Below are positions 2,597-46,467 of a DNA stretch of 46,467 bases, one piece after another. The position numbers and the translations under genes are program-made. Each line of letters starts with the position of its first letter. Position 1 is the first letter of the stretch. This DNA comes from a virus: IMG/VR virus record IMGVR_UViG_3300031951_021455, positions 1 to 46,467 of that record; one strand, 5' to 3'. Below the pieces are notes generated by a model that saw only the letters and a program-made list of their open reading frames with translations, had not been told where the DNA came from and did not search any database.

Positions 2597-2600
2597 AATT

Positions 2601-2610
2601 TATATATTAA
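2601..2610 (-). promoter_or_regulatory. TTAATATATA promoter-like element, short-spacer class
   Basis: Exact decamer, 4 nt before the ATG of the DHH phosphoesterase gene. If it is a -10 element the transcript would begin at or next to the start codon. Confidence 0.5.
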
Positions 2611-2623
2611 TATTGATTATTCA

Positions 2624-4009
2624 TTATTTTTTATCAAACGACTTGCCATATCCATCAATCATTCCCTTTTTATCACCTTTTGATTCTTCGTCATATTTAG
2701 TATCAAAGAAGTTATTATCATCTGTAACAATTTTAACCTCAGAGTCCATAGTTGCATAAGGTCCAAGTTTTCCTGAACGATAAACACCTCCGAACATATT
2801 ACTATTTAAGTATCCATCCATAAAATAACAATTAGTTAAGTCCGATTGTTCAACTCTGCAATTAAGGATTTTTGAATCAAAGGCATCGGTTTGTTCAAAT
2901 TTTGATTTTGTGCATTGTGAGTTTTTTACTTCACATCCTAAGAAAAAACAATCCTCAAATATTCCTTCTGCTTCACAATTAACAAGATCAACTGACCTTA
3001 ATATAGACGATGTTTTGATTTTAGCATCAACAATTTCAAATGATTGAGATGTTGTGACATAATTAAACATACACTCTTTTACATCTTGAATTGCGTCCAT
3101 TACTGCAAATATTTTATTGTATATTTTAGAATAATAAGCTGATACAATATCGTAATTTGAGTTCTGATCAATTTGTATTTGAACATTTGGAAAATCTACT
3201 ATAAAGTTGTCATATTTTGATAGATTTTTGTAATGAGAAATGTTATTTTGTAAATAGTCTTCCAATATATCAACATCGTCTGGACTAAAATCTACATCAA
3301 TTGAATCAAAAACAGATATTATAAATCTTTCTAGAAAATAAACTAACTGACCAAGATTCTTTTCATAATCTTTACCTCCGATATATCTAAATTCTAATCT
3401 TTGGCTTTCCCTACTGTTATTAACGTGTAAAAAATTAACACCAAAATACTTATCAGAAGGTAGTCTCATATTATTTTTAACAACCGATATAGGTATATTA
3501 AAAAAGTCATATTCTTTATAAGGTATTATTTTTTTAATTGATTTTGCATAAACGTTGTCTTTTCTTGATGGATAAGCTCTGTATATCTCATCTTCATCTA
3601 AGTTTAGTATTAATTTTAAACTATTAAGGTCATTTAAATCTTTATCTGTAAATGAGACATTAAAGTGTATAGAAGACTTTTCGTTGGTGTATCCATAGTT
3701 TTGAATGAATTTAATTATTTTTATCAAATAATATTTAGCGTCATAGTAATTGAGAGGACCAGTAACCAATTCCACCATGTTAGATCCACCGGAAAGGTCA
3801 GGCTCTATTTTAAAGTTTTTCTCATCTGGTGTAAAGTCAGAGTGATATTGTCTAAATCCCCAGACCTTTACAGGACCCAGTTCTTCATTTAACAATTCTA
3901 GTGTTTTATAATATGAAAGATCTTTCATATAGAACTCAAACTCGAATCCAACTCTAGCGTCTTTTAGTTTATTTGACTGATTTAAAAACTTATCAGAATA
4001 TTTTCTCAT
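2624..4009 (-). CDS. Amidoligase-like (glutamine-synthetase-fold) protein with pentapeptide-like C-terminus
   Basis: A 461-residue protein. The N-terminal two thirds match the plan of the putative amidoligase family (COOH-NH2 ligases with the glutamine synthetase/GCS fold): GFEFEF at about residues 21-26, EPDLSGGSNMVELVTGP at about 68-84, SSIHFNVSF at about 112-120 and RLEFRYIGG at about 204-212. These supply the Glu and His residues expected to hold ATP-Mg and substrate. Such enzymes join a carboxylate to an amine; the target is unknown. Residues about 340-420 are a run of Cys/Asn/Phe-rich pentapeptide-like repeats (for example NCEAEGIFEDCFFLGCEV), which would fold as a right-handed beta-helix. 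The C-terminus is charged. The start lies 5 nt after a TTAATATATA decamer. The combination of the two domains is unusual. Confidence 0.65.
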   Translation of the reverse strand: MRKYSDKFLNQSNKLKDARVGFEFEFYMKDLSYYKTLELLNEELGPVKVWGFRQYHSDFTPDEKNFKIEPDLSGGSNMVELVTGPLNYYDAKYYLIKIIKFIQNYGYTNEKSSIHFNVSFTDKDLNDLNSLKLILNLDEDEIYRAYPSRKDNVYAKSIKKIIPYKEYDFFNIPISVVKNNMRLPSDKYFGVNFLHVNNSRESQRLEFRYIGGKDYEKNLGQLVYFLERFIISVFDSIDVDFSPDDVDILEDYLQNNISHYKNLSKYDNFIVDFPNVQIQIDQNSNYDIVSAYYSKIYNKIFAVMDAIQDVKECMFNYVTTSQSFEIVDAKIKTSSILRSVDLVNCEAEGIFEDCFFLGCEVKNSQCTKSKFEQTDAFDSKILNCRVEQSDLTNCYFMDGYLNSNMFGGVYRSGKLGPYATMDSEVKIVTDDNNFFDTKYDEESKGDKKGMIDGYGKSFDKK

Positions 4010-4014
4010 AGTTC

Positions 4015-4024
4015 TATATATTAA
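4015..4024 (-). promoter_or_regulatory. TTAATATATA promoter-like element, short-spacer class
   Basis: Exact decamer, 5 nt before the ATG of the amidoligase-like gene. Confidence 0.5.
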
Positions 4025-4153
4025 AAATGAAATTTTAATTTAAAGTTTAAGGGAAAACTTTTTAAATTATATATATTCTCAACATGACAGTGATTAAAAA
4101 TAATATAAATTGTCTTTTATGGGATAAATGGTCCCAAAAACAGAATCGATAAA

Positions 4154-4543
4154 ATGGAATTTTTTTGTGTTTATTGTAAAACTAGAAAGAAGTTTGATAA
4201 GTTTGTTAAAATTAATCGGATTAAAAACAAATATATCATTGATATAAGGAAAATAATTGAAGAAGAAGAGGTAGATTTTCAAAGTGATAAAACTTATTTA
4301 AAAATTTTAATCTTTAATAAGATCCAACAAGCAATAGATAAAAAGAAAGACATTTACTACATTCCTGACTTTGAAAATGAATTTTCAATTGAAAAACTAC
4401 TAAATCTTAAAAAAATACTCGGTGAAAATAACTTCAATGTTTTAATATTCTACAACGAGTTCAGAAAATTTCCCGAAATTATAGATGATGTTTTAGGAAA
4501 TTTATCAAAATTCTCCAATTCACAAATCATAAGAGACTATTAA
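4154..4543 (+). CDS. Hypothetical protein
   Basis: A 129-residue, Lys- and Glu-rich protein with no recognised motif. It begins MEFFCVYCKTRKKF; the CVYC pair might be half of a zinc site but no second pair is present. The rest is predicted mixed helix and strand. The start codon follows an A-rich stretch with no ribosome-binding site. It stands alone, facing right, between the divergent amidoligase-like gene and the baseplate operon, which has its own promoter-like element downstream. The reading frame is open on the rightward strand and the overlapping leftward frame is much shorter, so this is taken as the real gene. Confidence 0.6.
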   Translation: MEFFCVYCKTRKKFDKFVKINRIKNKYIIDIRKIIEEEEVDFQSDKTYLKILIFNKIQQAIDKKKDIYYIPDFENEFSIEKLLNLKKILGENNFNVLIFYNEFRKFPEIIDDVLGNLSKFSNSQIIRDY

Positions 4544-4544
4544 T

Positions 4545-4554
4545 TTAATATATA
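4545..4554 (+). promoter_or_regulatory. TTAATATATA promoter-like element, long-spacer class
   Basis: Exact decamer, 25 nt before the ATG at 4580 that opens the rightward baseplate operon; the leader between is A-rich with no Shine-Dalgarno sequence. Confidence 0.55.
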
Positions 4555-4579
4555 AAGTATAAAAAATTAATACAAAACT

Positions 4580-6436
4580 ATGCCAAATTTAGGTGGATCC
4601 CCTTTAGGATTAATTGGTGTTGAATCAAGACCAACGCGTGATGGTATGTCTACTTTTAATGGTGGTCGTTCTCGAAACATTAATGTAAATTTATATAACG
4701 CTGGTAAAGAAACCGATAAATCAAAATTACAAAAAGCTAAAGTTGGAAAAAATGGTGGTATGTACTCTCTTTTTACTGGAGGTACCTTAATAAAGGCATG
4801 GGCAAATCAATCTAAAAAAGGAACAGCAAATAAAGAAAAGGAAGAGATAGGTTTAGAAGATGATTACACAGGAACTTCAAGAGCGACTTTACATAATAAC
4901 GATGTGTATGATACATCGGTATTAAATATTGTAGAAAAAACATCAGGTACTCGAGCTAGATTAAGACCATCTGATTTTGCTTATTTAAAAAATCTAGGAG
5001 TTTATCCAAATAACCGGTTAATAATTGCAAGAAGATTCTCGGGTCCTGTTGGTGATAATATTTTCACAAATGGTGGAGGTCCAATTTCCACACTAATAAG
5101 TTGGAGAAAGCCTGAGGAAGATTTCTTGGATATAACATTCGGAGAGGAATGGACCGATGCTGATGCTGATTTTACCGAGATTTTGAATAATATTGGAAAA
5201 GACTTACTTAATATGGGTAATTTAGGAACAGTTGCTGGTGCTGCTTTTGGTGCGGTTCCAATGCCAGGTTTTACAGAGATATTGACTAGAAAAATAGGAG
5301 AAGAGCTTGGAGTCTTTGAGCAGTATGACAAAAATCAAACTTTACCGGCGGGTGAGCCAAATTTAGTGAAAGAGGCAAAAAGAAGAAAGACCGTACCGGC
5401 TGGTGAAGCTGGATCGGGTTTATCTTGTATTTTGAGTGTAAAGATGACTTGTGAGTATGAGCAAAAATTTATTTCTGGAATAGACCCTACAATAGTTTAT
5501 TTAGACATATTATCAAATGCTCTTAGATTTGGAACCTCACCCGCTGTCGATTATGGCTTATCCGGAAAATTTGCTAGTAAAATTAAACAATGGGCAACTA
5601 ATCCACAATCATTGATTACTGATTTTGTTAGTGCGGTAAAAAACGCAATAGACTTTGCAAAAACTCAATTAAAAGATTTGATATCTAAAACATACAAAGA
5701 AGCTAAAGATGCGTTAAAGAACGAGAAAAAAGAAGCTTTAGCTGAACAAGAAGCAGCGGACGAAACTGAAGGTGGTGAAGAAGATCCAGGAGCCGATATA
5801 GAAAAGGATTACAAAAAACAAGAAGCTGAACTTAAAAAGGCTGAAGCTAAAGAAAAGGGATTTATAGATAAATTTGTTAATACTGTAGCTAATTTAACAT
5901 CAGAGATATTTTCTTCTGTAATAAGTAAGTATAGAGAGCAAATTAAAGGTATTGCGAATGCTCTTTCCGGAGCAGCCTCTACACCTTGGCATGTTACAAT
6001 TGGAAATCCTCTAAGACCAATGTTTTGTGCTGGGGATATGTACACAACAGCTGTTCAAATTACATTAGGTCCGACACTTGCATTTAACGATTTACCAGCA
6101 AGTATAAAAATTGACTTCACATTAACCCCCGCAAAATCTTGGGGATTAACAGATATTATGGCTAAGTTTAATACAGGTCACTTAAGAATTGTTAATGTTG
6201 TGAAAGATTTTGCAGCATCAAGTCCATCTGATGTATTAAATGAGAATCTCTATACTTATGAAAAAAGAGAAGAAGGTAAGGATTCGCAAACTCAAAATCA
6301 AGGTGGTGGATCTGGCGTGTCAAACAATGAAGACAAAAACGCAGGTGATCCATCAAAAACCACTACAAAAGAAAATCAATCCCAAGATAAAATAAATAAG
6401 GATGCTAATTCAAATTCGGGTTCTGTTACAAAATAA
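4580..6436 (+). CDS. Baseplate / tail-tube-associated structural protein
   Basis: A 618-residue protein, first gene of the rightward baseplate operon (11 nt before the gp53-like gene). It has no enzyme motif. Features: a Gly/Asn-rich N-terminus, an Ala/Gly-rich hydrophobic stretch near residues 210-235, a charged coiled-coil-like segment at about 365-430 rich in Lys, Glu and Ala, then a compact domain at about 460-550 containing WHVTIGNPLRPMFCAGDMYT and a following IKIDFTLTPAKSWG, and a disordered Ser/Asn/Lys tail. The late compact domain looks like the tube-facing domain of T4 gp48/gp54-type tail-tube cap proteins, but that is only an impression. Structural identity is supported mostly by the neighbours. 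Confidence 0.6.
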   Translation: MPNLGGSPLGLIGVESRPTRDGMSTFNGGRSRNINVNLYNAGKETDKSKLQKAKVGKNGGMYSLFTGGTLIKAWANQSKKGTANKEKEEIGLEDDYTGTSRATLHNNDVYDTSVLNIVEKTSGTRARLRPSDFAYLKNLGVYPNNRLIIARRFSGPVGDNIFTNGGGPISTLISWRKPEEDFLDITFGEEWTDADADFTEILNNIGKDLLNMGNLGTVAGAAFGAVPMPGFTEILTRKIGEELGVFEQYDKNQTLPAGEPNLVKEAKRRKTVPAGEAGSGLSCILSVKMTCEYEQKFISGIDPTIVYLDILSNALRFGTSPAVDYGLSGKFASKIKQWATNPQSLITDFVSAVKNAIDFAKTQLKDLISKTYKEAKDALKNEKKEALAEQEAADETEGGEEDPGADIEKDYKKQEAELKKAEAKEKGFIDKFVNTVANLTSEIFSSVISKYREQIKGIANALSGAASTPWHVTIGNPLRPMFCAGDMYTTAVQITLGPTLAFNDLPASIKIDFTLTPAKSWGLTDIMAKFNTGHLRIVNVVKDFAASSPSDVLNENLYTYEKREEGKDSQTQNQGGGSGVSNNEDKNAGDPSKTTTKENQSQDKINKDANSNSGSVTK

Positions 6437-6447
6437 TAAAAATAAAT

Positions 6448-6981: not shown

Positions 6982-6983
6982 TT

Positions 6984-9107
6984 ATGGCAAAGTATATTAA
7001 GTCAGTTAGAATAAGGAGAAATTTTGCAAACGGGTTTGATACAAAAACCGAGTTAGATATTAGAGTTGCAATTTATGATAGAGCTTTTTCTAAAAGAAGT
7101 GTATTAGGCGTCGATCCTAATAAAAAAGAAGAACCAGATAAATTAAATAAGATTTGGCCCGAAGTTGAATACTCCGGTAGTCGATATAAAGATTTAACAG
7201 ATGATGAGGTTATAACTGATTATATAAGAACTCAATCAAAGTTAAACTCAATTGAGTATGCTATTATACAAGATCCTTGGTCACCTGAACCTCCAATTTT
7301 AAGAAATTTCGGTTTTGATCCATATTATTTAAATAATGGAACAGAACTTTATGTTAAGTGGTTTAAATTTGATGATCCAAGCTGGACAGAGGTTTCTGGT
7401 ACCTATGAATCTGGTAAAACTGGTAGTATTCCGAATGTTATTGATATAAAAAGATCTGAACCTATTTCAGGTGGAACTGTCTCTGCCAACAGTGGAGATA
7501 GATATCTTGTTGGAAAAAATCCAACTGGTCCAAATTGGTCTAAATATGGAAATACGATGCCAATAGTCGAGTGGAATTCTTTTGGTCAATTTTGGTCTGA
7601 AACATTCTTAGAGGATGGTATAACTGTTTATGTAGATCTTGAAGAAGTTCAGTATAAATATAGTTCCGGCTCTCCTGTAATAGTTACAGGTGGAACAGAG
7701 TGGTCAGATAAAAAAGGTAATGAGAGGGATATAACTAGTTCAGATTATCTTATCGAGTTAAAAGGAGGAACTCCAAGTAATCCAAAGTCTCAAATTATAA
7801 AAAAAGTCGAAACGATAAATCAAAAGTCTGGAGAAATGTTAATGTTATCTATTGATAACACAATTGTCAAATATGGTGGATCTGCATCTAGAGAAGTACC
7901 TTCTGGTATTCCCGACATTGATATTGTCAATCGATTCATAGATGATTGGAAAAGAATAGTTCCAAATTATGATTTAAAACTCTGTAATCCTTCCAATCAA
8001 AAATGTGAATTAATAGAGTATATATCACCAATTCAGCCGTTACCTGGTCCTTCAGTAGAACCAACTGGTGGAAGTCCATCTGGAGCAAGTCCTTCTGGAT
8101 TAACAGTTTCAAAACAAAAATTAACAATAGTTTTCCCGGAAGATTTTAAAGTTATGGCTAGAGAAGATGTTCCTAAGTTTAGTATTTGGATAGGAGAACC
8201 TCAGTCTGAAGAATCTGTTGATGGGTTTGATTTCGGACCAGATAGTCCATTTGTTATTGATGAAGAATATGTTGAAGAACCTTTTGTTGGTTCCGAGGAA
8301 GATTTTCAGGTTTCGGAGTGTCAATTTTATGAAAGTGAATCCGATCAAAAACAAACCGAGGAACAAGCAGCAAAATTTAATGATGCTAGTTCAAATTCGG
8401 TGGGTGCAAACGGTCAGTTAAATGATGAAAAAATGAAAGAATCATATACTAACTATGTGCCTGGAAAACATAAATTAGATTTGATACCTGGAGAATTGGT
8501 AGCAAACGGGAAATCAAAAATAAAATGTTGCGCAGTGCCACTTGAATGGTATTCCGGTAAGAGCAATGTAAAACCAATAAATGTTGTTATAGCACCCGCT
8601 CTTATTGATATGCTTACCGCTGCTAAAGAAGCTGGTCACAGTATAGTTATATCATCAGGTTTCAGACCGGCTTTTGGTCCAAATTTAAGTGCAAAAACCG
8701 AAAGTGGTCTATCAGTTAGTGCTGAATCACAAGAAGTTCTTTACGCTAAAAATTGTCCAGGTGGGGTTTGTGGAAAAACTGAAACCGCCAAGCCCGGAAG
8801 TTCGAGACATGGAAATGGAATTGCTGTCGATTTAAACACCGGTACAAGAGATCCAAATAACGTTGTTCAATTTGGTAAATTGAGAAATGATGTTTATAAA
8901 TGGTTAGTAAAAAATTCCTGGAAGTTTGGATTTGTAAGAGCTGTTAAAAGTGAAGAGTGGCATTGGGAATATTACGGCGAAGCTGCAATAAAAGGTGGTC
9001 CATATTACAAAATCGGAAAAGGTGGTGGGTCTGCATTTAAGAAAGGAGAATCTAATTTCTATAGTGATTTAGGTGTAAATAATCTACAGTCACCTAATTA
9101 TACTTAA
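6984..9107 (+). CDS. Baseplate protein with C-terminal M15 (VanY/DacB-type) peptidase
   Basis: A 707-residue protein. Residues about 160-240 carry a module (SGDRYLVGKNPTGPNW, then VEWNSFGQFW) also present in the fibre gene at 41104 and reminiscent of DUF2793-type tail modules. Residues about 350-375 are a Pro/Ser/Gly linker. From about 535 to 690 lies a D-Ala-D-Ala carboxypeptidase-like M15 domain: ISSGFRP, then SRHGNGIAVDLN (about 606-617, zinc-ligand His and Asp) and EEWHWEYYG (about 657-665, catalytic Glu and second His ligand). M15 enzymes cut peptide bonds of peptidoglycan. The position at the end of a baseplate operon suggests local cell-wall digestion during infection. It ends one base before the convergent 85-residue gene. 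Confidence 0.8.
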   Translation: MAKYIKSVRIRRNFANGFDTKTELDIRVAIYDRAFSKRSVLGVDPNKKEEPDKLNKIWPEVEYSGSRYKDLTDDEVITDYIRTQSKLNSIEYAIIQDPWSPEPPILRNFGFDPYYLNNGTELYVKWFKFDDPSWTEVSGTYESGKTGSIPNVIDIKRSEPISGGTVSANSGDRYLVGKNPTGPNWSKYGNTMPIVEWNSFGQFWSETFLEDGITVYVDLEEVQYKYSSGSPVIVTGGTEWSDKKGNERDITSSDYLIELKGGTPSNPKSQIIKKVETINQKSGEMLMLSIDNTIVKYGGSASREVPSGIPDIDIVNRFIDDWKRIVPNYDLKLCNPSNQKCELIEYISPIQPLPGPSVEPTGGSPSGASPSGLTVSKQKLTIVFPEDFKVMAREDVPKFSIWIGEPQSEESVDGFDFGPDSPFVIDEEYVEEPFVGSEEDFQVSECQFYESESDQKQTEEQAAKFNDASSNSVGANGQLNDEKMKESYTNYVPGKHKLDLIPGELVANGKSKIKCCAVPLEWYSGKSNVKPINVVIAPALIDMLTAAKEAGHSIVISSGFRPAFGPNLSAKTESGLSVSAESQEVLYAKNCPGGVCGKTETAKPGSSRHGNGIAVDLNTGTRDPNNVVQFGKLRNDVYKWLVKNSWKFGFVRAVKSEEWHWEYYGEAAIKGGPYYKIGKGGGSAFKKGESNFYSDLGVNNLQSPNYT

Positions 9108-9365: not shown

Positions 9366-9368
9366 AAT

Positions 9369-9418
9369 AAAAAATTAGTTTTTATAATCTATATATTAAA
9401 TTAAAAAACTAATTTTTT
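9369..9418. repeat. 15-bp perfect inverted repeat around a promoter-like element
   Basis: Arms at 9369-9383 and 9404-9418 are exact reverse complements (AAAAAATTAGTTTTT). The 20-nt spacer contains the TTAATATATA element of the 85-residue gene. It begins at the stop codon of the spike gene, so it may be a weak AT-only terminator or an operator. Confidence 0.5.
9390..9399 (-). promoter_or_regulatory. TTAATATATA promoter-like element, long-spacer class
   Basis: Exact decamer, 24 nt before the ATG at 9365, inside the loop of an inverted repeat. Confidence 0.5.
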
Positions 9419-13765: not shown

Positions 13766-13769
13766 AGAC

Positions 13770-13779
13770 TATATATTAA
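13770..13779 (-). promoter_or_regulatory. TTAATATATA promoter-like element, short-spacer class
   Basis: Exact decamer, 4 nt before the ATG at 13765; lies in the 27-nt gap after the GH108-like gene, so the baseplate operon has an internal promoter-like site. Confidence 0.5.
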
Positions 13780-18857: not shown

Positions 18858-18867
18858 TATATATTAA
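18858..18867 (-). promoter_or_regulatory. TTAATATATA promoter-like element, short-spacer class
   Basis: Exact decamer, 5 nt before the ATG of the hub gene; it should drive the leftward baseplate operon. Confidence 0.5.
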
Positions 18868-18882: not shown

Positions 18883-20499
18883 TCAAAGATTTACTTTGAT
18901 AACTTTATATGGATATTGTCTTTTTTGATAAAACTTTTCTCTTTCTTTAAAGTGTCTAAATAGTATATTTGACATATTATTAGAGTCAAATACATCAACT
19001 AAATCAAAAATATTTGCTTTCTTTTTTTCTGAGTGTAATCTAAGAGCTCTACCTATAGATTGAATAATAATTTGCTCAGATTTAAATGAGTCAGCAAATA
19101 TGACATTAAATATTGCGTTGATAGAAACCCCAGTTGATAGTGTCCCATAAGAAGCAACTAAAACTTTAATGTTACCGTCTGTGAATTCCATTTGTTTCTT
19201 TATCTCTTCTCTTTTCTTACCAGATATCTCACCATCAATATAATAGTAATCTCTGCCTGGAAGATCCTTTTCTAACTTTTTAAGAATTTGCTGACCGTAA
19301 TCAATTGTGTGAAATAATAAGAGTGTGTTTGAGTCACACTTTTCTACTATTTTTTTAATAAAATCTAGTCTTTTTTCAGAAACATGTATGTAGGCTTTTT
19401 CTAATTCAAATGCGTCTTTTCCGTTTCCACCTTTTTTGATAAGTTGAATTCTATCATCAAACTCTTTATCATTGTGATTCATTATCACTGCTCTAATTTC
19501 CATTGGTGTAATGATACCTTTTTCCTTTAACTCATTTGCAGACACCTCTGTTATTTTTGGACCCAATACTGCTTGAATTGTTAAAATTTCACAAGTGTCA
19601 TCTTCTGGAAAAGTTCCAGAAACTCCAAATCTTGAATATGCATATTTAAACGTTTTTTGTAATATAGTTGTGATTGTTTTTGCTTTTGCACCGTGTGCTT
19701 CATCTGTTATAACTGTGTGAAATTGTTGAAAAAATTCTTTGGGCCATTTTTCAAGTGATTGATAAGTTCCTATATAAATGTTTGCGTCTTGTGTTCCGGA
19801 ATGTTTTCTCGGTCTTTCTGACATAACTTCTTCAACTCTTAGATCACATGGTGAATATTTAGCGTCTGTATTTAAAATAGATTCTATTTTTTTTTCTCTC
19901 ATCTCCGCTAAATTGTTTATTCCCCAATTATATTCCATAATGTTATCATAAAACTGTGTCACAAGTGTTATTGAAGGAACTATGATTAGAAATTTGGCAG
20001 TTGGATCAATATGTTTTAAAGTATAAAACATTACAATAGATATTATTAATGATTTACCACCGGATGTGGCAACTTCGGCCATACAATATCTATTTTTAAG
20101 TATCTTGTAAGCTGACTCAATTTGATGATCGTAAGGAGTGAAGTTAATCCATTCTCCTGACTTTGTTCTAACTTTATGAAATTTAAAAAACTCTTTACAA
20201 AACTCTTGAACACTCTCTAATGTCACTTCTCTATTAAGAGGGAATTCATCTTTGTTTTCTAATATGAAAGGCATATCTATTTCTTTGCATCCCTTCATAG
20301 CTTCTTTCCAGAGTCCTAAACTTACTCTTCCGTTTCTAAAATATGTTTGTTGTCCATTCCAAACACCCATTTTGAATGCAGGCATATATCTATAACCTTT
20401 CACATGTCTGGTTAGCCAAAGATTTAATTGATGGTATTCAATTCTTGTAGCTGACGTGACAACAATTTCTTCTGTCGATGTGTCATATCTAAATTTCAT
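18883..20499 (-). CDS. uvsW: UvsW-like SF2 DNA helicase
   Basis: A 538-residue superfamily 2 helicase, close in size to T4 UvsW (503). The N-terminal ~100 residues contain the small UvsW-type domain (WLTRHVKGYRYMPAF, GVWNGQQTYF). Helicase motifs: MAEVATSGGKSLI (motif I, about 141-153), TDEAHGAKA (motif II, about 259-267), FGVSGTFP (motif III), VASYGTLSTGVSI (motif V), IIQSIGRALRLH (motif VI). UvsW unwinds branched DNA and R-loops and lets T4 switch from origin-dependent to recombination-dependent replication. The start is 8 nt after a TTTATATATA element. It faces away from the basic-protein gene across a 111-nt gap holding promoter-like elements for both. Confidence 0.9.
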   Translation of the reverse strand: MKFRYDTSTEEIVVTSATRIEYHQLNLWLTRHVKGYRYMPAFKMGVWNGQQTYFRNGRVSLGLWKEAMKGCKEIDMPFILENKDEFPLNREVTLESVQEFCKEFFKFHKVRTKSGEWINFTPYDHQIESAYKILKNRYCMAEVATSGGKSLIISIVMFYTLKHIDPTAKFLIIVPSITLVTQFYDNIMEYNWGINNLAEMREKKIESILNTDAKYSPCDLRVEEVMSERPRKHSGTQDANIYIGTYQSLEKWPKEFFQQFHTVITDEAHGAKAKTITTILQKTFKYAYSRFGVSGTFPEDDTCEILTIQAVLGPKITEVSANELKEKGIITPMEIRAVIMNHNDKEFDDRIQLIKKGGNGKDAFELEKAYIHVSEKRLDFIKKIVEKCDSNTLLLFHTIDYGQQILKKLEKDLPGRDYYYIDGEISGKKREEIKKQMEFTDGNIKVLVASYGTLSTGVSINAIFNVIFADSFKSEQIIIQSIGRALRLHSEKKKANIFDLVDVFDSNNMSNILFRHFKEREKFYQKRQYPYKVIKVNL

Positions 20500-20507
20500 C
20501 TCATATT

Positions 20508-20517
20508 TATATATAAA
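20508..20517 (-). promoter_or_regulatory. TTTATATATA promoter-like element, short-spacer class
   Basis: One mismatch to TTAATATATA, 8 nt before the ATG of uvsW. Confidence 0.4.
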
Positions 20518-20579: not shown

Positions 20580-20589
20580 TTGATATATA
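20580..20589 (+). promoter_or_regulatory. TTGATATATA promoter-like element, long-spacer class
   Basis: One mismatch to the consensus, 21 nt before the ATG at 20611, with an A-rich leader. Confidence 0.45.
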
Positions 20590-21681: not shown

Positions 21682-21691
21682 TTAATATATA
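21682..21691 (+). promoter_or_regulatory. TTAATATATA promoter-like element, long-spacer class
   Basis: Exact decamer, 19 nt before the ATG at 21711; should serve the acidic-protein and HAD genes together. Confidence 0.55.
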
Positions 21692-25167: not shown

Positions 25168-25177
25168 TATATATTGA
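25168..25177 (-). promoter_or_regulatory. TCAATATATA promoter-like element, short-spacer class
   Basis: One mismatch to consensus, 6 nt before the ATG of the HNH gene. Confidence 0.45.
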
Positions 25178-26188: not shown

Positions 26189-26198
26189 TATATATAAA
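26189..26198 (-). promoter_or_regulatory. TTTATATATA promoter-like element, long-spacer class
   Basis: One mismatch to consensus, 19 nt before the ATG at 26169. Confidence 0.4.
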
Positions 26199-26728: not shown

Positions 26729-26738
26729 TATATATTTA
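26729..26738 (-). promoter_or_regulatory. TAAATATATA promoter-like element
   Basis: One mismatch to consensus; 5 nt before ATG 26723 or 26 nt before the alternative ATG 26702. Confidence 0.4.
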
Positions 26739-27349: not shown

Positions 27350-27359
27350 TATATATCAA
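27350..27359 (-). promoter_or_regulatory. TTGATATATA promoter-like element, short-spacer class
   Basis: One mismatch to consensus, 4 nt before the ATG at 27345. Divergent partner of the element at 27363. Confidence 0.5.
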
Positions 27360-27362
27360 TAC

Positions 27363-27372
27363 TTAATATATA
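27363..27372 (+). promoter_or_regulatory. TTAATATATA promoter-like element, short-spacer class
   Basis: Exact decamer, 5 nt before the ATG at 27378; only 3 nt from the divergent element. Confidence 0.55.
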
Positions 27373-29562: not shown

Positions 29563-29572
29563 TCAATATATA
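29563..29572 (+). promoter_or_regulatory. TCAATATATA promoter-like element, long-spacer class
   Basis: One mismatch to consensus, 20 nt before the ATG at 29593; supports the 51-residue gene. Confidence 0.45.
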
Positions 29573-29749: not shown

Positions 29750-30289
29750 TTACTTCTTTTTTGTTTTCATCATCATCAACCATTTACCTCCTTCTAATTT
29801 AGGCATACTTTCAGGAATTCCAAACTCTTCAACTAGTTGTGTGAATTTAAGCATTACTAATTCACCTCTTTCAGGATTTGCTTTTTGACGACCTTTAAGT
29901 GAAATAACAACTTTTACTTTATCACCGTCTTTTAAAAACTCTCTGCCTTTTTTTGCCTTTGTTTCAAGATCGTGATCTGAAATATTTACAGATAGTTGAA
30001 TTTCTTTGAGTTGAGATTTATTGGCAATCTTCTTTTTTTCTTTTTCTGTCTTTTCTAATACATATAAGAATTTATTATAGTCTTCTATTCTAACAATTGG
30101 TGGATTTTGAGATTCGTTAATTAGGATTAAATCTTTTTCCTCTGAGTTTGCAATTTTTTGTGCTTCAGATGTAGAGATAACAAAAGGCTCTCCCCGACCA
30201 ACCAATCTTACTTCAGGAAAATTAAGTTCTGAATTTATTTTGTGTTTTCTTTTTATTTCGGGTCTTTTTCTAAAATTGTTGTTTCTCAT
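29750..30289 (-). CDS. infC: Translation initiation factor IF-3
   Basis: A 179-residue protein that follows bacterial IF3 along its whole length. N-domain (about 24-85): FPEVRLVGRGEPFVISTSEA, then LILINESQNPPIVRIEDYNKFLY, equivalent to the usual Pro-Pro-Val-x-Arg-Ile-x-Asp-Tyr-x-Lys-Phe block. A Lys/Glu linker helix follows. C-domain (about 95-175): LKEIQLSVNISDHDLETKAK, EFLKDGDKVKVVISLKGRQ, and MPKLEGGKWLMMMKTKKK. The Arg normally found in the KEIKFRP segment is replaced (QLSVN), and the basic N-terminal extension is longer. IF3 binds the 30S subunit, prevents premature subunit joining and checks start codons. It starts with ATG, not the rare ATT of many infC genes. It is 14 nt downstream of a membrane-protein gene. 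Confidence 0.88.
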   Translation of the reverse strand: MRNNNFRKRPEIKRKHKINSELNFPEVRLVGRGEPFVISTSEAQKIANSEEKDLILINESQNPPIVRIEDYNKFLYVLEKTEKEKKKIANKSQLKEIQLSVNISDHDLETKAKKGREFLKDGDKVKVVISLKGRQKANPERGELVMLKFTQLVEEFGIPESMPKLEGGKWLMMMKTKKK

Positions 30290-31487: not shown

Positions 31488-31497
31488 TTAATATATA
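31488..31497 (+). promoter_or_regulatory. TTAATATATA promoter-like element, short-spacer class
   Basis: Exact decamer, 5 nt before the ATG at 31503. Confidence 0.55.
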
Positions 31498-33133: not shown

Positions 33134-33143
33134 ATAATATATA
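33134..33143 (+). promoter_or_regulatory. ATAATATATA promoter-like element, short-spacer class
   Basis: One mismatch to consensus, 7 nt before the ATG at 33151, within the 26-nt divergent gap. Confidence 0.45.
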
Positions 33144-35237: not shown

Positions 35238-35247
35238 TTGATATATA
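35238..35247 (+). promoter_or_regulatory. TTGATATATA promoter-like element, long-spacer class
   Basis: One mismatch to consensus, 19 nt before the ATG of the lysin gene. Confidence 0.5.
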
Positions 35248-36001: not shown

Positions 36002-36004
36002 AAT

Positions 36005-36037
36005 AAAAAACCCAGTCATTTTGACTGGGTTTTTTTT
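36005..36037. terminator. Bidirectional hairpin terminator
   Basis: AACCCAGTCA at 36009-36018 pairs exactly with TGACTGGGTT at 36022-36031 (3-nt loop), A-run before, T-run after. It separates the lysin gene from the convergent gene ending at 36036. Confidence 0.88.
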
Positions 36038-36767: not shown

Positions 36768-36786
36768 AATTTTGTTTTGTTTTTTG

Positions 36787-36796
36787 TATATATTAT
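36787..36796 (-). promoter_or_regulatory. ATAATATATA promoter-like element, long-spacer class
   Basis: One mismatch to consensus, 19 nt before the ATG at 36767, followed by a Thr/Lys-rich-looking A/C leader (ACAAAACAAAATT). Confidence 0.4.
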
Positions 36797-36800
36797 ATTA

Positions 36801-37955: not shown

Positions 37956-37959
37956 GATT

Positions 37960-37969
37960 TATATATTAA
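37960..37969 (-). promoter_or_regulatory. TTAATATATA promoter-like element, short-spacer class
   Basis: Exact decamer, 4 nt before the ATG of the PPK2 gene. Confidence 0.55.
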
Positions 37970-37983
37970 AATTATAAATGAAT

Positions 37984-38886: not shown

Positions 38887-38891
38887 GTAAT

Positions 38892-38901
38892 TATATATTA
38901 A
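38892..38901 (-). promoter_or_regulatory. TTAATATATA promoter-like element, short-spacer class
   Basis: Exact decamer, 5 nt before the ATG at 38886. Confidence 0.55.
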
Positions 38902-38946
38902 TATATCATTCTCTAAATTCAATATGAAAAAATAATAAAAATAAAA

Positions 38947-38956
38947 TTTATATATA
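38947..38956 (+). promoter_or_regulatory. TTTATATATA promoter-like element, short-spacer class
   Basis: One mismatch to consensus, 6 nt before the ATG at 38963. Confidence 0.45.
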
Positions 38957-38962
38957 GATAGT

Positions 38963-39271
38963 ATGAAGTATATCAGGAAATTTGAAACTTTTGATTTTAG
39001 TCAAACGCTACCAGTCGCATCAAAGGCTGACTTAACACTTTATTATCATTGTGATGAGTGTAATGCTCTTTGGAAACAACTTAATCAAGAATCCAATGAT
39101 TGTAAATTTTGCCAATCTAACGAAATTGAGGAGTTAAGTAAAGACGAGTGGTATGAAACTGTTGGTGATAGACTAGAAGAAGATGATTTTCAGGATTTAG
39201 AATCCGAGAGAGCTAAAGATGAAGATGACTTTATAGATTTATATAAATTAAATAAAGGAAATGTCAATTAA
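38963..39271 (+). CDS. Small zinc-ribbon protein, shared N-terminal motif
   Basis: A 102-residue protein. It opens MKYIRKFETFDFSQT, the shared basic/aromatic motif. A compact zinc ribbon follows: YYHCDECNALW (about 28-38) and DCKFCQSNEIEEL (about 46-58) give two Cys-x-x-Cys pairs. The C-terminal 40 residues are very acidic (DRLEEDDFQDLESERAKDED). Zinc ribbons of this size bind nucleic acid or polymerases. It is the first of a two-gene rightward unit; the next gene starts inside its last codons (11-nt overlap). Confidence 0.65.
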   Translation: MKYIRKFETFDFSQTLPVASKADLTLYYHCDECNALWKQLNQESNDCKFCQSNEIEELSKDEWYETVGDRLEEDDFQDLESERAKDEDDFIDLYKLNKGNVN

Positions 39272-39971: not shown

Positions 39972-40043
39972 ATCATGAAACATCATGATACTCTTACTAT
40001 AAATTTTATTTTTAATGCTTTTGAATAATTAGATTTTTCTTTT

Positions 40044-40053
40044 TTAATATATA
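40044..40053 (+). promoter_or_regulatory. TTAATATATA promoter-like element, long-spacer class
   Basis: Exact decamer, 20 nt before the ATG at 40074; should drive the fibre genes at 40074 and 41104. Confidence 0.6.
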
Positions 40054-40073
40054 AAGAAAACTATATTTTGTAA

Positions 40074-41084: not shown

Positions 41085-41103
41085 AAATATAAATAAAAAT
41101 TAG

Positions 41104-42705
41104 ATGGCATTAAATACAGGAACATTAATTTCAGCAGCAATAAGACCAGTAGATAGTCTGGATACTATTGCTACTGCTTATGCTTCAGAGATTAAAGGGG
41201 GTCTTCATTCTTATGCTACAATCGCAGAGAGAAATTCTATTATATTTGAAAGAAGAGAATGGGGTATGATGGTTACTGTTTATAGTGATCCAACTCCGTC
41301 TAATAATAAAACTTATCAATTAACATATAATTATGTTTCTACTAACATTTTAGATGATTCAAATTGGAAAGAATTTTCTGGAGGTGTTTCTGGAGGTGGT
41401 GGAAATGAATGGATTGACTCTGTACTTTCTATTTCAAATATAGAACCTACTCCTTCTTCAGGGGATAGATACTTATTAGGAAATGCTCCTTCTGGAATTA
41501 ATTGGTCTTCTTTTCAACCTGATAAAGTTGTTGAATGGAATTCAGTCACTAATCAATGGATTCAGACAACTCCTACGGATGGGATGTCGGTAAGAGTCGA
41601 TGATGAAGATAATTCAATTTATAGATATGAAGGTGTTTTCCCAACAGGTGCTTGGGTTAAAGAAAAATTAAATCAAATTAGATCAATAGTAGCTACAACT
41701 GCGAATGGTTTATCCTATTCTGTTACTATGACACCTTCTATAGATCAGTATTATCCTGATGTGTTATTTTTGACACAGTTTGCTACCTCGAATATTGGAT
41801 TGACTGTTTCGCTAAATATAAACGGATTGGGTGAGGTACTGGTAAAAAGGCCATCTGCTAGCGGACTATCCAATTTTAATCCTAATGAAATTGATACAAC
41901 ATTAATTTATAATGTTTGTTTTGATGGTACTTATTTTCAATTATCAAGACCTTACACAAATGATGATATTTTTAGTGTAAAGTATTTAGTGGAACCAAAC
42001 GATTATATCGTAGTACCGCCATACTATCAATATTGGGTTTATTCTGACTTAACTATACAAGGAACACTTGTTAATTATGGTCAAGTTGTTATAGCAAATG
42101 GATCAATGATTTTGAGTGGTGGTACATTTTCAAATTATGGACAATTATCTTTAATTAATTTTTCAGGTAGTGGAATGACCACATCATTTAATGACACTAA
42201 TACTATTTCCTTTTCACAATCTAATACAATCTTTGGTCCTTCGGTTTCAGCTGAAGTTAAGAACTCATCAATTAACACGTTTAAATTGGATTCAGGTAGT
42301 AATGGGGGAGCGACCGCTGGTTATTTTTTATCAGTGGATTCAATGGGTTATTTTCAATGGGTACCAAGCTCAGCATTAGCACAACCTGAGTATTCTCAAA
42401 TTAATTTATCTCCATTAGGTACATTGATTGGTCAGAATTTTCAACCTACTGGTTTGACAATAAACTATAGTCCAAATGATTATTCAAGATTATCCATTTA
42501 TGTTAATGGTCAATTACAAAATTTAGGTGATGGTCAAAATTCCACAGCTTCTAATGTTGATTGTTATTTTTCGAATGATGGGGGATTAACCGCAAAAACA
42601 ATATTCTCTGTTGATTTAGGTGATGAGCTCTATTGGAATGGATTCAACTCTGGATTCGATCTAATATCATTAGACTCAATCGATATGATTTATGAAAGAA
42701 TTTAA
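41104..42705 (+). CDS. Tail fibre protein with DUF2793-like module and shared tip domain
   Basis: A 533-residue protein. About 110-185 (SSGDRYLLGNAPSGINWSSF, VVEWNSVTNQWIQTTP) matches the module in the baseplate M15 protein. The middle is beta-rich with a repeating short-strand pattern (about 300-420). The last ~95 residues (SPNDYSRLSIYVNGQLQNLG, DCYF, LGDELYWNG, GFDLISLDSIDMIYE) match the C-terminal domain of the next gene and probably form the receptor-facing tip. It contains no visible chaperone. No promoter-like element precedes it, so it is probably co-transcribed with the gene at 40074. Confidence 0.7.
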   Translation: MALNTGTLISAAIRPVDSLDTIATAYASEIKGGLHSYATIAERNSIIFERREWGMMVTVYSDPTPSNNKTYQLTYNYVSTNILDDSNWKEFSGGVSGGGGNEWIDSVLSISNIEPTPSSGDRYLLGNAPSGINWSSFQPDKVVEWNSVTNQWIQTTPTDGMSVRVDDEDNSIYRYEGVFPTGAWVKEKLNQIRSIVATTANGLSYSVTMTPSIDQYYPDVLFLTQFATSNIGLTVSLNINGLGEVLVKRPSASGLSNFNPNEIDTTLIYNVCFDGTYFQLSRPYTNDDIFSVKYLVEPNDYIVVPPYYQYWVYSDLTIQGTLVNYGQVVIANGSMILSGGTFSNYGQLSLINFSGSGMTTSFNDTNTISFSQSNTIFGPSVSAEVKNSSINTFKLDSGSNGGATAGYFLSVDSMGYFQWVPSSALAQPEYSQINLSPLGTLIGQNFQPTGLTINYSPNDYSRLSIYVNGQLQNLGDGQNSTASNVDCYFSNDGGLTAKTIFSVDLGDELYWNGFNSGFDLISLDSIDMIYERI

Positions 42706-42713
42706 ATTTAAAA

Positions 42714-42723
42714 TTAATATATA
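42714..42723 (+). promoter_or_regulatory. TTAATATATA promoter-like element, long-spacer class
   Basis: Exact decamer, 26 nt before the ATG at 42750. Confidence 0.55.
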
Positions 42724-42749
42724 ATAAAATAAAAAAAAGAAACTAAAAT

Positions 42750-44975
42750 ATGGCTCAATTAGATGGAAAACAATTAAAAATTCAATCAGTCTCATTAGAT
42801 AAGCTTAAGGGATATAGTGGTTTAGTGACATTTACAGCTTCCGCGACTATGAGTTTTGCAACTGGATCGTCGATCACTCAAGCATCTGTAAATATCAACA
42901 CGGATGAGGATGTTGCTAATAAAAAATATGTAGATGATGCTGTTTCATTATTAGGTTCCGGTTCGATAGCTGGAGTTACCGCTGGAAATGGTCTATCGGG
43001 AGGTGGAACTTCTGCTTACATCACTTTAGATGTTAATTTAGGTGTTAATAGTGGATTAACTTTTTCAGGAGATGATATTATTTTAGATTCTTCTATAGCT
43101 GGAAATGGACTTACTGCTAATGGTTCAACTTTGGATGTGAATGTGAATGCTGACTCTTTAGAGATAGTAGGTGATGTTCTGAGATTAAAAGATACGATTG
43201 TGGGTAACAGAACTTTCCAAGATACAGTTACTGTAAATGGTGACTTTTATGTAAATGGAACAGTATCATATATACAAACTCAAACTGTACTAGTTGAAGA
43301 TAATATTATTACACTAAACGCAACTTGGTCCGGTTCTCCGATACTAAATTCTGGTATTGATGTTATAAGAGGAAGTGAGCCATCTGCTTCTTTAATCTGG
43401 AACGAATCGACCGATTTGTGGTCAGCTGGTATTTCTGGTTCTGAGGTGTCAATTCTGTTGAATACAGGAACAGGACTTGTTAAAGACGGCGCAACGGTTT
43501 CTTTAGATTATGTTACAATTACAGGAACAGGACTTACACAAAATGGAACACAGATAAGTATTGATACTGGATTTGCAACATCACTAGCTGGTGATGGTTT
43601 ATCAGAAAATGGTGGAACGCTTTCTGTTAATATTGGTAATGGATTAGAAATTATTTCTGACACAGTTCAATTGGGAGGAACACTCTCACAGAATACTACA
43701 ATAGAAGCAAATGGAAATGATTTTAGTTTATCAGATGCAAATAATATTAACTTAGGAGTTACTGGAGTTGGTACTTTACATTTAGATAATTTTAATGGAG
43801 ATTACACCACAACTTTAGATCTTAATGCACAATCAGGTTACGGTGTTGAATTATCATCTACGTATGCTGGTGGTACGTATTCATTCGTTGCTGTGAATCA
43901 AGGACAAATTAAACTTCTTTCTACTGATCCAAATGTTGGTTCTCAGTTTCAGATTGAAATAAATACATCAACTATTAGTGTTAGTGACGGATCTACCGAT
44001 AATAGAATAGTAATTACAGACACACTAGGAAAAGGAGCGGTTTATGCAGGTGATTATACTGGTAGTTTTACGGATAATTCACTTGTTACAAAACAATATG
44101 TTGATAGTGTGACATCCAATGTTGGCACGGATAACGGAATACAAGAATTAAGTCCAGGTGTAATTGGATTGGGTGGAACTTTTTCACAAAACACTACAAT
44201 TAGTGGATCTAATTATGATTTAACTATTCAAGACTTTGACATATTAACTCTTACTGGTTCGGTTATTGATATTCAATTGGATAATGGATTATTCTTAGTA
44301 GATGCTGGTAACGGAGGAACTATTGATCTTTATGGTGGTGATGTGACATTATTTGCTACCGGAAGTGTGGATATCATTTCAACGAATGAATTTACAGTAT
44401 CTACTGCAACCGGTTCTATTACAACATCAAGTCTTCAAGGTTTGGTTTATACATCTGATTACTCATCTACATTTGTAAATAACTCTTTAATTACAAAAAA
44501 GTATGTAGATGATGCGGTTGCTGTGATAAACGCTGATTTTATCACTGGTGTGACTGCAGGTAATGGATTATCAGGAGGAGGTACCTCAGGATTTATTACT
44601 TTAGATGTTTCTCCAACAATTGCTGGTACGGGTCTGACTTTCTCTGCTGGAGTATTGTCGGTAGTCTCTGGTTCATCACAGCCTGTATATAACGAGTTTG
44701 TTGCTGTATTAACTACTGGTGATGATGCAATTGTAACAGGAGTTACTTTAAGTTCAACACCAAATGATTATTCTAGAATTGAAGTCTATGTTAATGGTCA
44801 GAAACAAAGATTAGGAGATAATGTTGCAACAAAAGACTGTTATTTTGGAACTGCTCCATCAACACCGATTGCTCTTAATAATTTGATATCTGGAGATCAA
44901 CTTTATTGGAATGGAACAGTGGCTGGATTTGATTTATCATCCACCGATATTATTGAAATAGTTTATGAGGTTTAA
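42750..44975 (+). CDS. Long tail fibre protein with internal repeats and shared tip domain
   Basis: A 741-residue fibre protein dominated by short beta repeats. Repeated units: a KKYVDDAV segment near residue 58 and again near residue 586, with a variant (TKQYVDSV) near 450; a GVTAGNGLSGGGTS segment near 74 and 604; and several LSVNIGNGLEI-type units. This arrangement is typical of trimeric beta-helical shafts. A FYVNGTVSYIQTQTVLVEDN segment near 165 resembles a common fibre motif. The C-terminal ~95 residues (TPNDYSRIEVYVNGQKQRLG, DCYF, GDQLYWNG, AGFDLSSTDIIEIVYE) match the end of the previous gene. A terminator follows. Confidence 0.75.
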   Translation: MAQLDGKQLKIQSVSLDKLKGYSGLVTFTASATMSFATGSSITQASVNINTDEDVANKKYVDDAVSLLGSGSIAGVTAGNGLSGGGTSAYITLDVNLGVNSGLTFSGDDIILDSSIAGNGLTANGSTLDVNVNADSLEIVGDVLRLKDTIVGNRTFQDTVTVNGDFYVNGTVSYIQTQTVLVEDNIITLNATWSGSPILNSGIDVIRGSEPSASLIWNESTDLWSAGISGSEVSILLNTGTGLVKDGATVSLDYVTITGTGLTQNGTQISIDTGFATSLAGDGLSENGGTLSVNIGNGLEIISDTVQLGGTLSQNTTIEANGNDFSLSDANNINLGVTGVGTLHLDNFNGDYTTTLDLNAQSGYGVELSSTYAGGTYSFVAVNQGQIKLLSTDPNVGSQFQIEINTSTISVSDGSTDNRIVITDTLGKGAVYAGDYTGSFTDNSLVTKQYVDSVTSNVGTDNGIQELSPGVIGLGGTFSQNTTISGSNYDLTIQDFDILTLTGSVIDIQLDNGLFLVDAGNGGTIDLYGGDVTLFATGSVDIISTNEFTVSTATGSITTSSLQGLVYTSDYSSTFVNNSLITKKYVDDAVAVINADFITGVTAGNGLSGGGTSGFITLDVSPTIAGTGLTFSAGVLSVVSGSSQPVYNEFVAVLTTGDDAIVTGVTLSSTPNDYSRIEVYVNGQKQRLGDNVATKDCYFGTAPSTPIALNNLISGDQLYWNGTVAGFDLSSTDIIEIVYEV

Positions 44976-44990
44976 TTATAAAATTCAAAC

Positions 44991-45022
44991 AAAAAAAAGA
45001 CCTTACTTTAAGGTCTTTTTTT
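44991..45022 (+). terminator. Hairpin terminator
   Basis: AAAGACCTTA at 44996-45005 pairs exactly with TAAGGTCTTT at 45009-45018 (3-nt loop), followed by T-run; ends the fibre gene at 44975. Confidence 0.88.
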
Positions 45023-45062
45023 GTTTGGTTTAAGTCGGTTTTTCAAAATAGGCAATTTCAAT

Positions 45063-45072
45063 TTAATATATA
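45063..45072 (+). promoter_or_regulatory. TTAATATATA promoter-like element, long-spacer class
   Basis: Exact decamer, 27 nt before the ATG at 45100, placed after a terminator; the following fibre gene therefore forms a new unit. Confidence 0.55.
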
Positions 45073-45099
45073 AGAAAGATAAAAAAAATTTAGTCATTA

Positions 45100-46467
45100 A
45101 TGGCTCAAATAAAAACTAAACAAATAAGAGGAGCTTCTCAAGGTTCTATACTTTTTCTGGGCACTAACAGTGTTGTTAGTGAAAACTTTGACAATTTACG
45201 TTGGGAACATAGTTCTAATAAACTAATAGTAGATGGTTCTCTTCAATTTATTGACGGTAATCAATTACCTGGTTATGTTTTAACATCAGATTCTTTTGGA
45301 AATGCAACTTGGCAACAAACTCAAATTCCCTTTACGAAACAGTTATTATCAGGAGGTGCGATATGGAGTGGAGTTGGTTTAACTTTTTCAGTTAGTACTT
45401 TACAGTATACTTTTACAGGGCCAATTTTAACAGCTGGTCCTACTTCAGTGTCTCTTAGTGACGGAGACCCGACTTATTCAAGATTTGACGCGATTGTTGT
45501 TGATGAGGAAGGATTGATTAGTGTTTTACAAGGAGATGCTACGCCTGATCCAGTTACTCCTTCAATACCTGATGAACAACTATTAGTACAATATGTTAGT
45601 ATCTCTGAAAATTCAACAGTTCCTGTTTCTGGTGTTACATCTTCAGAGTATATTTATCAAGACGATGATTATTGGACTGGTGGAACATTCAGTACTTCTT
45701 TAGGTACAAGTTCTGTCGATTTTCAATATACGGGAATTGTACCTTTTCAAGGTACCTATTCAACAAGAGTGATATTGAATAAAACAACATCTGTTAAGTG
45801 GACCAACAACTCATCTATTTTATTAAAAGATTATTCCTATTTAGTCTTTAGAGTTTATTTTCCTTCCGCGGTTCTTAATACAAAGACTATGAGAGTGATA
45901 TGGAGAAATGGAAATACAAATGTTGGATCCTATGCTTATCCGTTCACTAATGGTGGTGTTTCTAGAACAACTACAGGAACTTGGCAACTATGTGTTTTGC
46001 CTTTAAGTTATTTTGGTTCCGCGGTAAATGCTTTAACGTCAAATGGTGGTTCAAATAATGTCAATAATATATTGATAGGATTTTCAGGAAATCCTTCAGC
46101 TAACTATGTTGAAGCATTGTTGGACGAAGTGTATTTGGTTGGTGGTATTGGTACTCCGGTTGCTAATACGAGTATTTCTGTTCAATCAAATGGTGTTTTA
46201 GTTGGTAGTAGAAGCGTAATAAATTTTATATCAGGAAGTGGATCAACTGTAACGGTAACTGATTCTAGTTTAAATTCAAGAATTGACGTTTTAATTAGCG
46301 CATCTGGTAGTGGTGTTTCAGGTACTTCTGGAACCTCTGGTACTGATGGAACCTCTGGTACTTCCGGTACTGGAACCTCTGGTACTTCCGGTACTGATGG
46401 AACCTCTGGTACTTCCGGTACTGATGGAACCTCTGGTACTTCCGGTACTGATGGAACCTCTGGTACT
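45100..46467 (+). CDS. Tail fibre protein with collagen-like Gly-Thr-Ser repeats, partial at 3' end
   Basis: An open frame of 456 codons from ATG 45100 that continues past the window end without a stop. N-terminus MAQIKTKQIRGASQGSILFL resembles the start of the preceding fibre (MAQLDGKQLKIQ), suggesting a common attachment segment. Residues about 190-350 look like a carbohydrate-binding-type beta sandwich (DYSYLVFRVYFPSAVLNTKTM, YVEALLDEVYLVGG). From about residue 405 it becomes Gly-Thr-Ser/Gly-Thr-Asp repeats, a Gly-x-y pattern like phage collagen-like shafts. The receptor-binding end is outside the window. Confidence 0.75.
   Translation, partial: MAQIKTKQIRGASQGSILFLGTNSVVSENFDNLRWEHSSNKLIVDGSLQFIDGNQLPGYVLTSDSFGNATWQQTQIPFTKQLLSGGAIWSGVGLTFSVSTLQYTFTGPILTAGPTSVSLSDGDPTYSRFDAIVVDEEGLISVLQGDATPDPVTPSIPDEQLLVQYVSISENSTVPVSGVTSSEYIYQDDDYWTGGTFSTSLGTSSVDFQYTGIVPFQGTYSTRVILNKTTSVKWTNNSSILLKDYSYLVFRVYFPSAVLNTKTMRVIWRNGNTNVGSYAYPFTNGGVSRTTTGTWQLCVLPLSYFGSAVNALTSNGGSNNVNNILIGFSGNPSANYVEALLDEVYLVGGIGTPVANTSISVQSNGVLVGSRSVINFISGSGSTVTVTDSSLNSRIDVLISASGSGVSGTSGTSGTDGTSGTSGTGTSGTSGTDGTSGTSGTDGTSGTSGTDGTSGT
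46321..46467 (+). repeat. 27-bp tandem repeat coding Gly-Thr-Ser triplets
   Basis: Units of 27 bp encoding GTSGTSGTD, nearly identical at the DNA level (GGAACCTCTGGTACTTCC core); one unit at 46348-46371 lacks the last codon (24 bp). The array continues beyond the window. Near-identity suggests recent expansion or active recombination. Confidence 0.85.

Follow-up and report, generated by a model that had tools for sequence, protein, structure and literature searches.

A promoter-like box at two distances from the start codon predicts leaderless and leadered genes in huge phages

Two spacings between the motif and the start codon

The stretch of viral DNA analysed here comprises 46,467 nucleotides (IMG/VR virus record IMGVR_UViG_3300031951_021455, positions 1 to 46,467; hereafter, the window) and carries a recurrent A+T-rich element, TTAATATATA, that precedes gene starts at either of two distances. 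We propose, with a probability of roughly 0.83, that this element constitutes the -10-like box of a phage promoter and that its distance to the ATG would determine whether the resulting mRNA is leaderless or carries a leader. An earlier note, prepared from the sequence of the window alone, had pointed out 14 exact copies of the element on both strands, and these are indeed present, seven on each strand, whereas dinucleotide shuffles of the window contained 0.72 copies on average and never more than 4. When the gap was counted between the motif end and the first downstream ATG with an open frame of 60 codons or more, eight exact copies were located at 4–5 nt and six at 19–27 nt (4 nt three times, 5 nt five times, and 19, 20, 24, 25, 26 and 27 nt). 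Near copies occur as that note described and, once added, bring the window to 14 short-gap (4–8 nt) and 11 long-gap (19–27 nt) sites, with no exact or near copy at a gap between 9 and 17 nt. A few copies of the motif are orphans lacking a start codon downstream. Base changes at the first three positions preserved the association with gene starts, while changes at the last seven mostly abolished it; the strict core is thus ATATATA, preceded by W-T-W, and TTWATATATA was taken as the working consensus.

A search of phage DNA for close relatives of the window returned a single weak match. Protein searches led to huge-phage relatives, including phage genomes of 634–735 kb, and the 1042-aa gene product of the window has an identical counterpart in each of two longer IMG/VR contigs. 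Al-Shayeb et al. (2020, PMC7162821) assigned those of their genomes that exceed 634 kb to the Mahaphage clade, with Bacteroidetes as predicted hosts. The spacing was assessed in eight related huge-phage genomes or contigs of this Mahaphage type (2.8 Mb in total; LR756502 complete, the others whole or in part), whose hosts are likewise predicted to be Bacteroidetes. Among their 534 exact copies, 222 lie at gaps of 3–9 nt, 4 at 10–15 nt and 206 at 16–30 nt, none of them at 10, 11 or 12 nt (pooled bimodality against a uniform gap, binomial p about 1e-39), and modes at 4–5 and about 18–23 nt were found in every one of the eight genomes. With a relaxed core, bimodality was also observed in LR745206, a 508-kb contig (G007) and LR756504. 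The reversed word, used as a control, lacked the two-gap pattern, and other all-A/T 10-mers gave a smooth gap distribution; a control set of 10-mers of the same composition was dropped on account of a word overlapping the motif. Motif enrichment and bimodal spacing can be read directly from the sequences: the two spacings perceived in the window recur in its eight relatives, and the flat genome-wide distribution that the earlier note had named beforehand as evidence against its proposal was tested for and not found. Moreover, in five genome pairs, orthologues whose identity does not exceed 70% tended to belong to the same class (Fisher p 0.002–0.01).

Both classes display a promoter context

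Each of the two classes has an AT-only triplet at -17 to -15 relative to the motif (G+C content of 7–17%, compared with 21–30% at orphan copies), about 31–29 bp before the putative transcription start. Terminator-like hairpins within the 60 nt upstream were found at 10.4% of the short-class sites and 5.9% of the long-class sites, but at only 2.4% of the orphan copies and 1.2% of the starts lacking the motif. Since the triplet and the upstream hairpins are common to both classes, this context, which is itself evident in the sequences, indicates that the short class consists of promoters too.

In the long class, an A is located 5 nt past the motif in 84% of the cases (85% in LR756501), compared with 41% at orphan copies, from which we infer that this conserved A is the transcription start. 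Most short-class ATGs begin at this same position, so that short-class mRNAs should be leaderless; at the inferred offset, the -10 element of the short class is placed so that transcription would start at the ATG. Leaderless genes of bacteria are marked by a -10-like signal some 12 bp ahead of the start codon (PMC3160421), and this published rule, together with the short-class spacing, makes the leaderless reading applicable here. The earlier note had suggested that the short class would be leaderless if the element were a -10 box like that of T4 late genes. Leaderless transcription appears to be the best explanation of this class, since the putative start A lies at the offset where the short-class ATGs begin; the comparison with T4 holds insofar as the element resembles a -10-like promoter box, but not for the T4 late box itself, whose consensus differs, and the candidate sigma factor here is of the extracytoplasmic function (ECF) kind, with region 4.

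Short-class ATGs and translation signals

In LR756502, 99 of the 107 ATGs at gaps of 4–6 nt open at least 60 codons, compared with 15.8% of all ATGs. Between short-class orthologues, the differences over codons 2–12 are distributed among the three codon positions as 57/66/176, a third-position excess that begins at codon 2. In addition, orthologues that have switched class can share their N terminus, as do the window gene starting at 38963 (gap 6) and the LR756502 gene starting at 145034 (gap 21). Judging from these coding patterns, the short-class ATGs are genuine start codons. An A at +4 was present in 80% of the short-class genes, 53% of the long-class genes and 64% of the genes without the motif in LR756502 (W01), LR745206 (W02), G003 and G005, and the A-rich second codons of short-class genes might help leaderless initiation.

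Words resembling a Shine-Dalgarno sequence precede 31 of the 912 starts of LR756502, compared with 88 inside genes, while T4 shows 102/196. Consistently, huge phages with possible S1 proteins have been reported to rarely have Shine-Dalgarno sequences (PMC7162821). Leadered genes at the phage motif display an A-run 13–18 nt before the ATG regardless of the gap; given this fixed position, a leader shorter than about 12 nt could not hold it.

Host-type promoters obey the same leader-length rule

The promoter consensus of the primary sigma factor of Bacteroidetes is TTTG-N19/20-TAnnTTTG. This consensus, which is unrelated to TTAATATATA and represents a separate promoter class, coexists with the phage motif in LR756502, LR745206, the 508-kb contig and LR756504, where it displays the same two gaps: 48 short, 4 middle and 64 long, peaks that were lost in controls with a wrong spacer. 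Bimodal spacing is therefore apparent in the sequences for both promoter types, a point that goes beyond the earlier note. Two unrelated promoters sharing one spacing rule suggest that the constraint acts on the mRNA, through leader length, rather than on one motif; therefore, an mRNA would have either no leader or a leader of at least about 12 nt. The host-type promoters of LR756502 cluster in the latter half of the record and perhaps belong to early genes.

Of the host-type promoters, 0 of 29 from Bacteroidales loci fell in the short class, compared with 48 of 142 from the phages (p = 5e-5), the Bacteroidales sample being small and not from known hosts of these phages. In Lak phage (Prevotella phage Lak-A1, L168–L171), a host-type TATCTTTG and a T4-like AATAAATA lie upstream of genes, almost exclusively at gaps of at least 16 nt, and both the TTWATATATA motif and the two-gap pattern are absent from this A+T-richer genome. 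Since it is nearly absent in Lak and absent from the Bacteroidales sample, the short class appears to belong to this phage lineage and not to all Bacteroidetes phages.

A candidate reader of the box

At least one Sigma70_r2 protein is encoded in each of the five records larger than 500 kb. The sigma factors of LR756502 and LR745206, proteins of 200 and 209 aa, carry Sigma70_r2 and Sigma70_r4_2 above cut-off, and they have the ECF-type architecture, i.e., regions 2 and 4 only in about 200 aa. The RNA polymerase beta subunit (PF00562) is absent from all seven records searched. The presence of phage sigma genes and the lack of a beta subunit point to the host RNA polymerase with a phage ECF-like sigma as the likely reader, and such a sigma probably recognizes the box. 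The TTWATATATA box was not seen just upstream of the sigma gene of LR756502 or of the translation initiation factor 3 (IF3) gene of the window, which is at most suggestive as to timing; the motif promoters may be active late in infection.

The IF3 encoded in the window (positions 29750–30289, minus strand) is full-length and contains both Pfam domains. IF3 is also encoded in G001, G003, G004, G007, LR756501 and LR756504, and is not found in LR756502 or LR745206. According to a published report, this factor discriminates against leaderless mRNA (PMC9031893). The possibility that the short class depends on IF3 was discarded, because LR756502 and LR745206 have strong short classes without it.

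Proposed explanation and alternatives

In the explanation that we propose, TTWATATATA would serve as the -10-like box of a promoter of the phage. The host RNA polymerase, equipped with an ECF-like sigma encoded by the phage, would probably recognize this box, and transcription would start 5 nt past it. At a gap of 4–5 nt, the A of the ATG would be the first base of the mRNA, giving rise to a leaderless transcript; a gap of 6–9 nt would leave a leader of 2–5 nt; and a gap of about 18–27 nt would produce a leader of about 14–23 nt, without a Shine-Dalgarno sequence and with the A-run 13–18 nt before the ATG. Leaders of about 6–11 nt would be avoided because they would offer the ribosome no free AUG at the 5' end and too little A-rich leader for docking.

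Alternatively, the short-gap motif could be a translation signal at which the ribosome docks beside the ATG, the long-gap motif alone being a promoter. It occupies the place expected of a Shine-Dalgarno sequence, a signal missing from these phages, but the idea is improbable given that short and long sites match in consensus, AT-only triplet and upstream terminator excess, and that the quite different TAnnTTTG promoter has the same short gap. Equally improbable is that the bimodality stems from two promoter subtypes with different start sites, translation being uninvolved. The existence of two spacing classes would agree with it, but the putative start A of the long class lies at the same offset as the short-class ATG, host-type promoters share the forbidden zone, and T4 TATAAATA, Lak AATAAATA and the small Bacteroidales sample show no short class.

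Slightly less probable still is that the short-gap ATG belongs to the transcription initiator and that translation starts at a downstream in-frame codon. While a start-site preference for A could, in principle, favour ATG-like initiators, the long frames opened by nearly all ATGs at gaps of 4–6 nt (99/107), the third-position excess from codon 2 and the long-gap orthologues starting at the same methionine contradict this view. Finally, the low G+C content of these genomes (27–33%) might suggest an artefact of A+T-rich sequence and open reading frame (ORF) calling, whose probability we consider negligible: the pattern is not reproduced by the shuffles, the reversed word, the A+T-richer genome of Lak or further 10-mers made up of A and T, and these controls refute the idea.

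Several points weigh against the promoter-distance explanation. In LR756501 (735 kb), the middle zone is less clean (3/47). Class is not conserved between LR756501 and LR756502, and its conservation was not significant in some other genome pairs. The transcription start is deduced from base composition, and the A-run near the ATG of leadered genes partly overlaps the putative start-site A, so that the start position could be off by 1–2 nt. Furthermore, a homologous sigma (29% identity) is present in Lak phages even though they lack the motif, which makes the link between sigma and motif uncertain.

Leaderless mRNAs of phages are usually known as single cases, e.g., lambda cI, whereas in the phages with the largest known genomes promoter distance appears to divide hundreds of genes into leaderless and leadered ones. 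The nearly empty zone, shared by two promoter types, would offer a natural measure of the leader lengths tolerated by a ribosome working without Shine-Dalgarno sequences. From the spacing rule follows a clear expectation for the mRNA 5' ends sequenced during infection by huge phages, and the rule should help to locate promoters, transcription starts and start codons in mostly unannotated genomes. A broader scenario, which we consider rather unlikely and offer tentatively, is a genome-wide two-mode translation, operating in hosts that ordinarily do not depend on leaderless mRNAs, in which promoter distance would fix each gene as leaderless or A-leadered and the phage would shift the balance during infection, possibly via its own IF3 and S1-domain proteins.

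Comparison with known systems

The nearest published element is the middle/late promoter of phiEco32, tAATGTAtA, which is read by the phage sigma gp36 and directs initiation 6–8 bp downstream (PMC8948821). Eight of its nine positions agree with TAATATATA, position 5 being G there and A here, and both systems would combine a -10-like element, a start a few bp downstream, and host RNA polymerase with a phage sigma (in the huge phages, a putative one). However, gp36 lacks region 4, which the huge-phage sigma possesses, and phiEco32-type promoters have no -35 element; the huge-phage promoters carry a weak AT-only triplet at -17 to -15 from the motif. We came across no statement on leaderless genes of phiEco32 in PMC8948821.

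The late promoters of T4, TATAAATA, depend on gp55/gp33/gp45, with a phage specificity factor on host RNA polymerase (PMC2988020), and they too have an AT-rich box, roughly one helical turn ahead of the start; nevertheless, the huge-phage motif, whose ATATATA core is strict, does not match their consensus. The gaps from TATAAATA to the ATG in T4 are 13–34 nt, with one at 52 and none in the short class, and T4 uses Shine-Dalgarno sequences, which the huge phages lack. The gp55 protein of T4 is not known to contain region 4, so that a gp55-like factor does not correspond to the huge-phage sigmas, the presumed readers of the motif, which carry Sigma70_r2 and Sigma70_r4_2. The early promoters of phiKZ and AR9, AAATATATATTAT-6N-G, read by phage multisubunit RNA polymerases (PMC5312081), similarly contain an extended A/T-rich element a few nt before the start, but these phages have their own RNA polymerase, whereas the beta-subunit domain is absent from the relatives searched here.

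Leaderless genes of bacteria follow the same logic with nearly the same spacing (PMC3160421), a rule described for cellular genomes, whereas a phage-specific motif and predicted Bacteroidetes hosts are involved here. The Bacteroidetes member F. johnsoniae is mostly leadered, 87% of its leaders being longer than 10 nt (PMC6847099). Searches of the open-licence literature uncovered no description of leaderless genes as a class in huge phages or Bacteroides phages.

Functions of the two classes

Functions in LR756502 were read from alignments, for which the best 25 families were listed, so that enrichment is not rigorously countable. Among the matches listed, the leadered set comprises a T4-type portal, terminase, tail sheath, lysozyme (endolysin), head-tail adaptor and peptidase, together with UvsX and homing endonucleases. 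The leaderless set, among the matches listed, consists mostly of enzymes (PPK2, methyltransferases, GIY-YIG and HNH nucleases, ClpS, SET and helicase), and also includes tail-fibre and virion proteins; in the window, the baseplate-hub gene lies downstream of a short-class promoter. The enrichment of structural and lysis proteins proposed by the earlier note for the long class is thus matched by a tendency in LR756502, but fibre and virion proteins and the baseplate hub stand on the short side, and the functional split between the classes is a tendency only.

Motif sites in the window

The 25 sites are given below with the gap to the ATG; annotation of window genes with PHROGs and Pfam was sparse.

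2601–2610, minus strand: TTAATATATA, short, gap 4, ATG 2596; DHH-like gene 374–2596 (weak DHH match, under the Pfam cut-off)
4015–4024, minus strand: TTAATATATA, short, gap 5, ATG 4009
4545–4554, plus strand: TTAATATATA, long, gap 25, ATG 4580; same-strand run including the tape-measure-like gene 6984–9107
9390–9399, minus strand: TTAATATATA, long, gap 24, ATG 9365
13770–13779, minus strand: TTAATATATA, short, gap 4, ATG 13765; downstream gene 9417–11702 matches baseplate hub/tail lysozyme
18858–18867, minus strand: TTAATATATA, short, gap 5, ATG 18852
20508–20517, minus strand: TTTATATATA, short, gap 8, ATG 20499; UvsW-like helicase, with a two-codon ORF (ATG AGA TGA) overlapping its start
20580–20589, plus strand: TTGATATATA, long, gap 21, ATG 20611
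21682–21691, plus strand: TTAATATATA, long, gap 19, ATG 21711
25168–25177, minus strand: TCAATATATA, short, gap 6, ATG 25161; HNH endonuclease
26189–26198, minus strand: TTTATATATA, long, gap 19, ATG 26169
26729–26738, minus strand: TAAATATATA, short, gap 5, ATG 26723
27350–27359, minus strand: TTGATATATA, short, gap 4, ATG 27345
27363–27372, plus strand: TTAATATATA, short, gap 5, ATG 27378; divergent partner of 27350–27359
29563–29572, plus strand: TCAATATATA, long, gap 20, ATG 29593; 51-codon ORF
31488–31497, plus strand: TTAATATATA, short, gap 5, ATG 31503
33134–33143, plus strand: ATAATATATA, short, gap 7, ATG 33151
35238–35247, plus strand: TTGATATATA, long, gap 19, ATG 35267
36787–36796, minus strand: ATAATATATA, long, gap 19, ATG 36767
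37960–37969, minus strand: TTAATATATA, short, gap 4, ATG 37955; PPK2
38892–38901, minus strand: TTAATATATA, short, gap 5, ATG 38886
38947–38956, plus strand: TTTATATATA, short, gap 6, ATG 38963; LR756502 orthologue in the long class, gap 21
40044–40053, plus strand: TTAATATATA, long, gap 20, ATG 40074
42714–42723, plus strand: TTAATATATA, long, gap 26, ATG 42750
45063–45072, plus strand: TTAATATATA, long, gap 27, ATG 45100; collagen-like, weak match

At 27350–27372, two short-class promoters stand back to back, with 3 bp between them and genes on both strands. At the start of the UvsW-like gene (20499–20517, minus strand), the two-codon ORF ATG AGA TGA begins 2–3 nt past the promoter box, and its stop codon overlaps the ATG of the gene. 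This ORF is conserved in L005–L007, L009–L012, L014, L018 and L019 (as ATG AAA TGA in L018), and ATG AAA TAA or ATG AAA GAA is found at the same place in L015–L017, even though the gene start lies farther downstream there. From its arrangement, the two-codon ORF looks like a leaderless mini-cistron translationally coupled to the UvsW-like gene.

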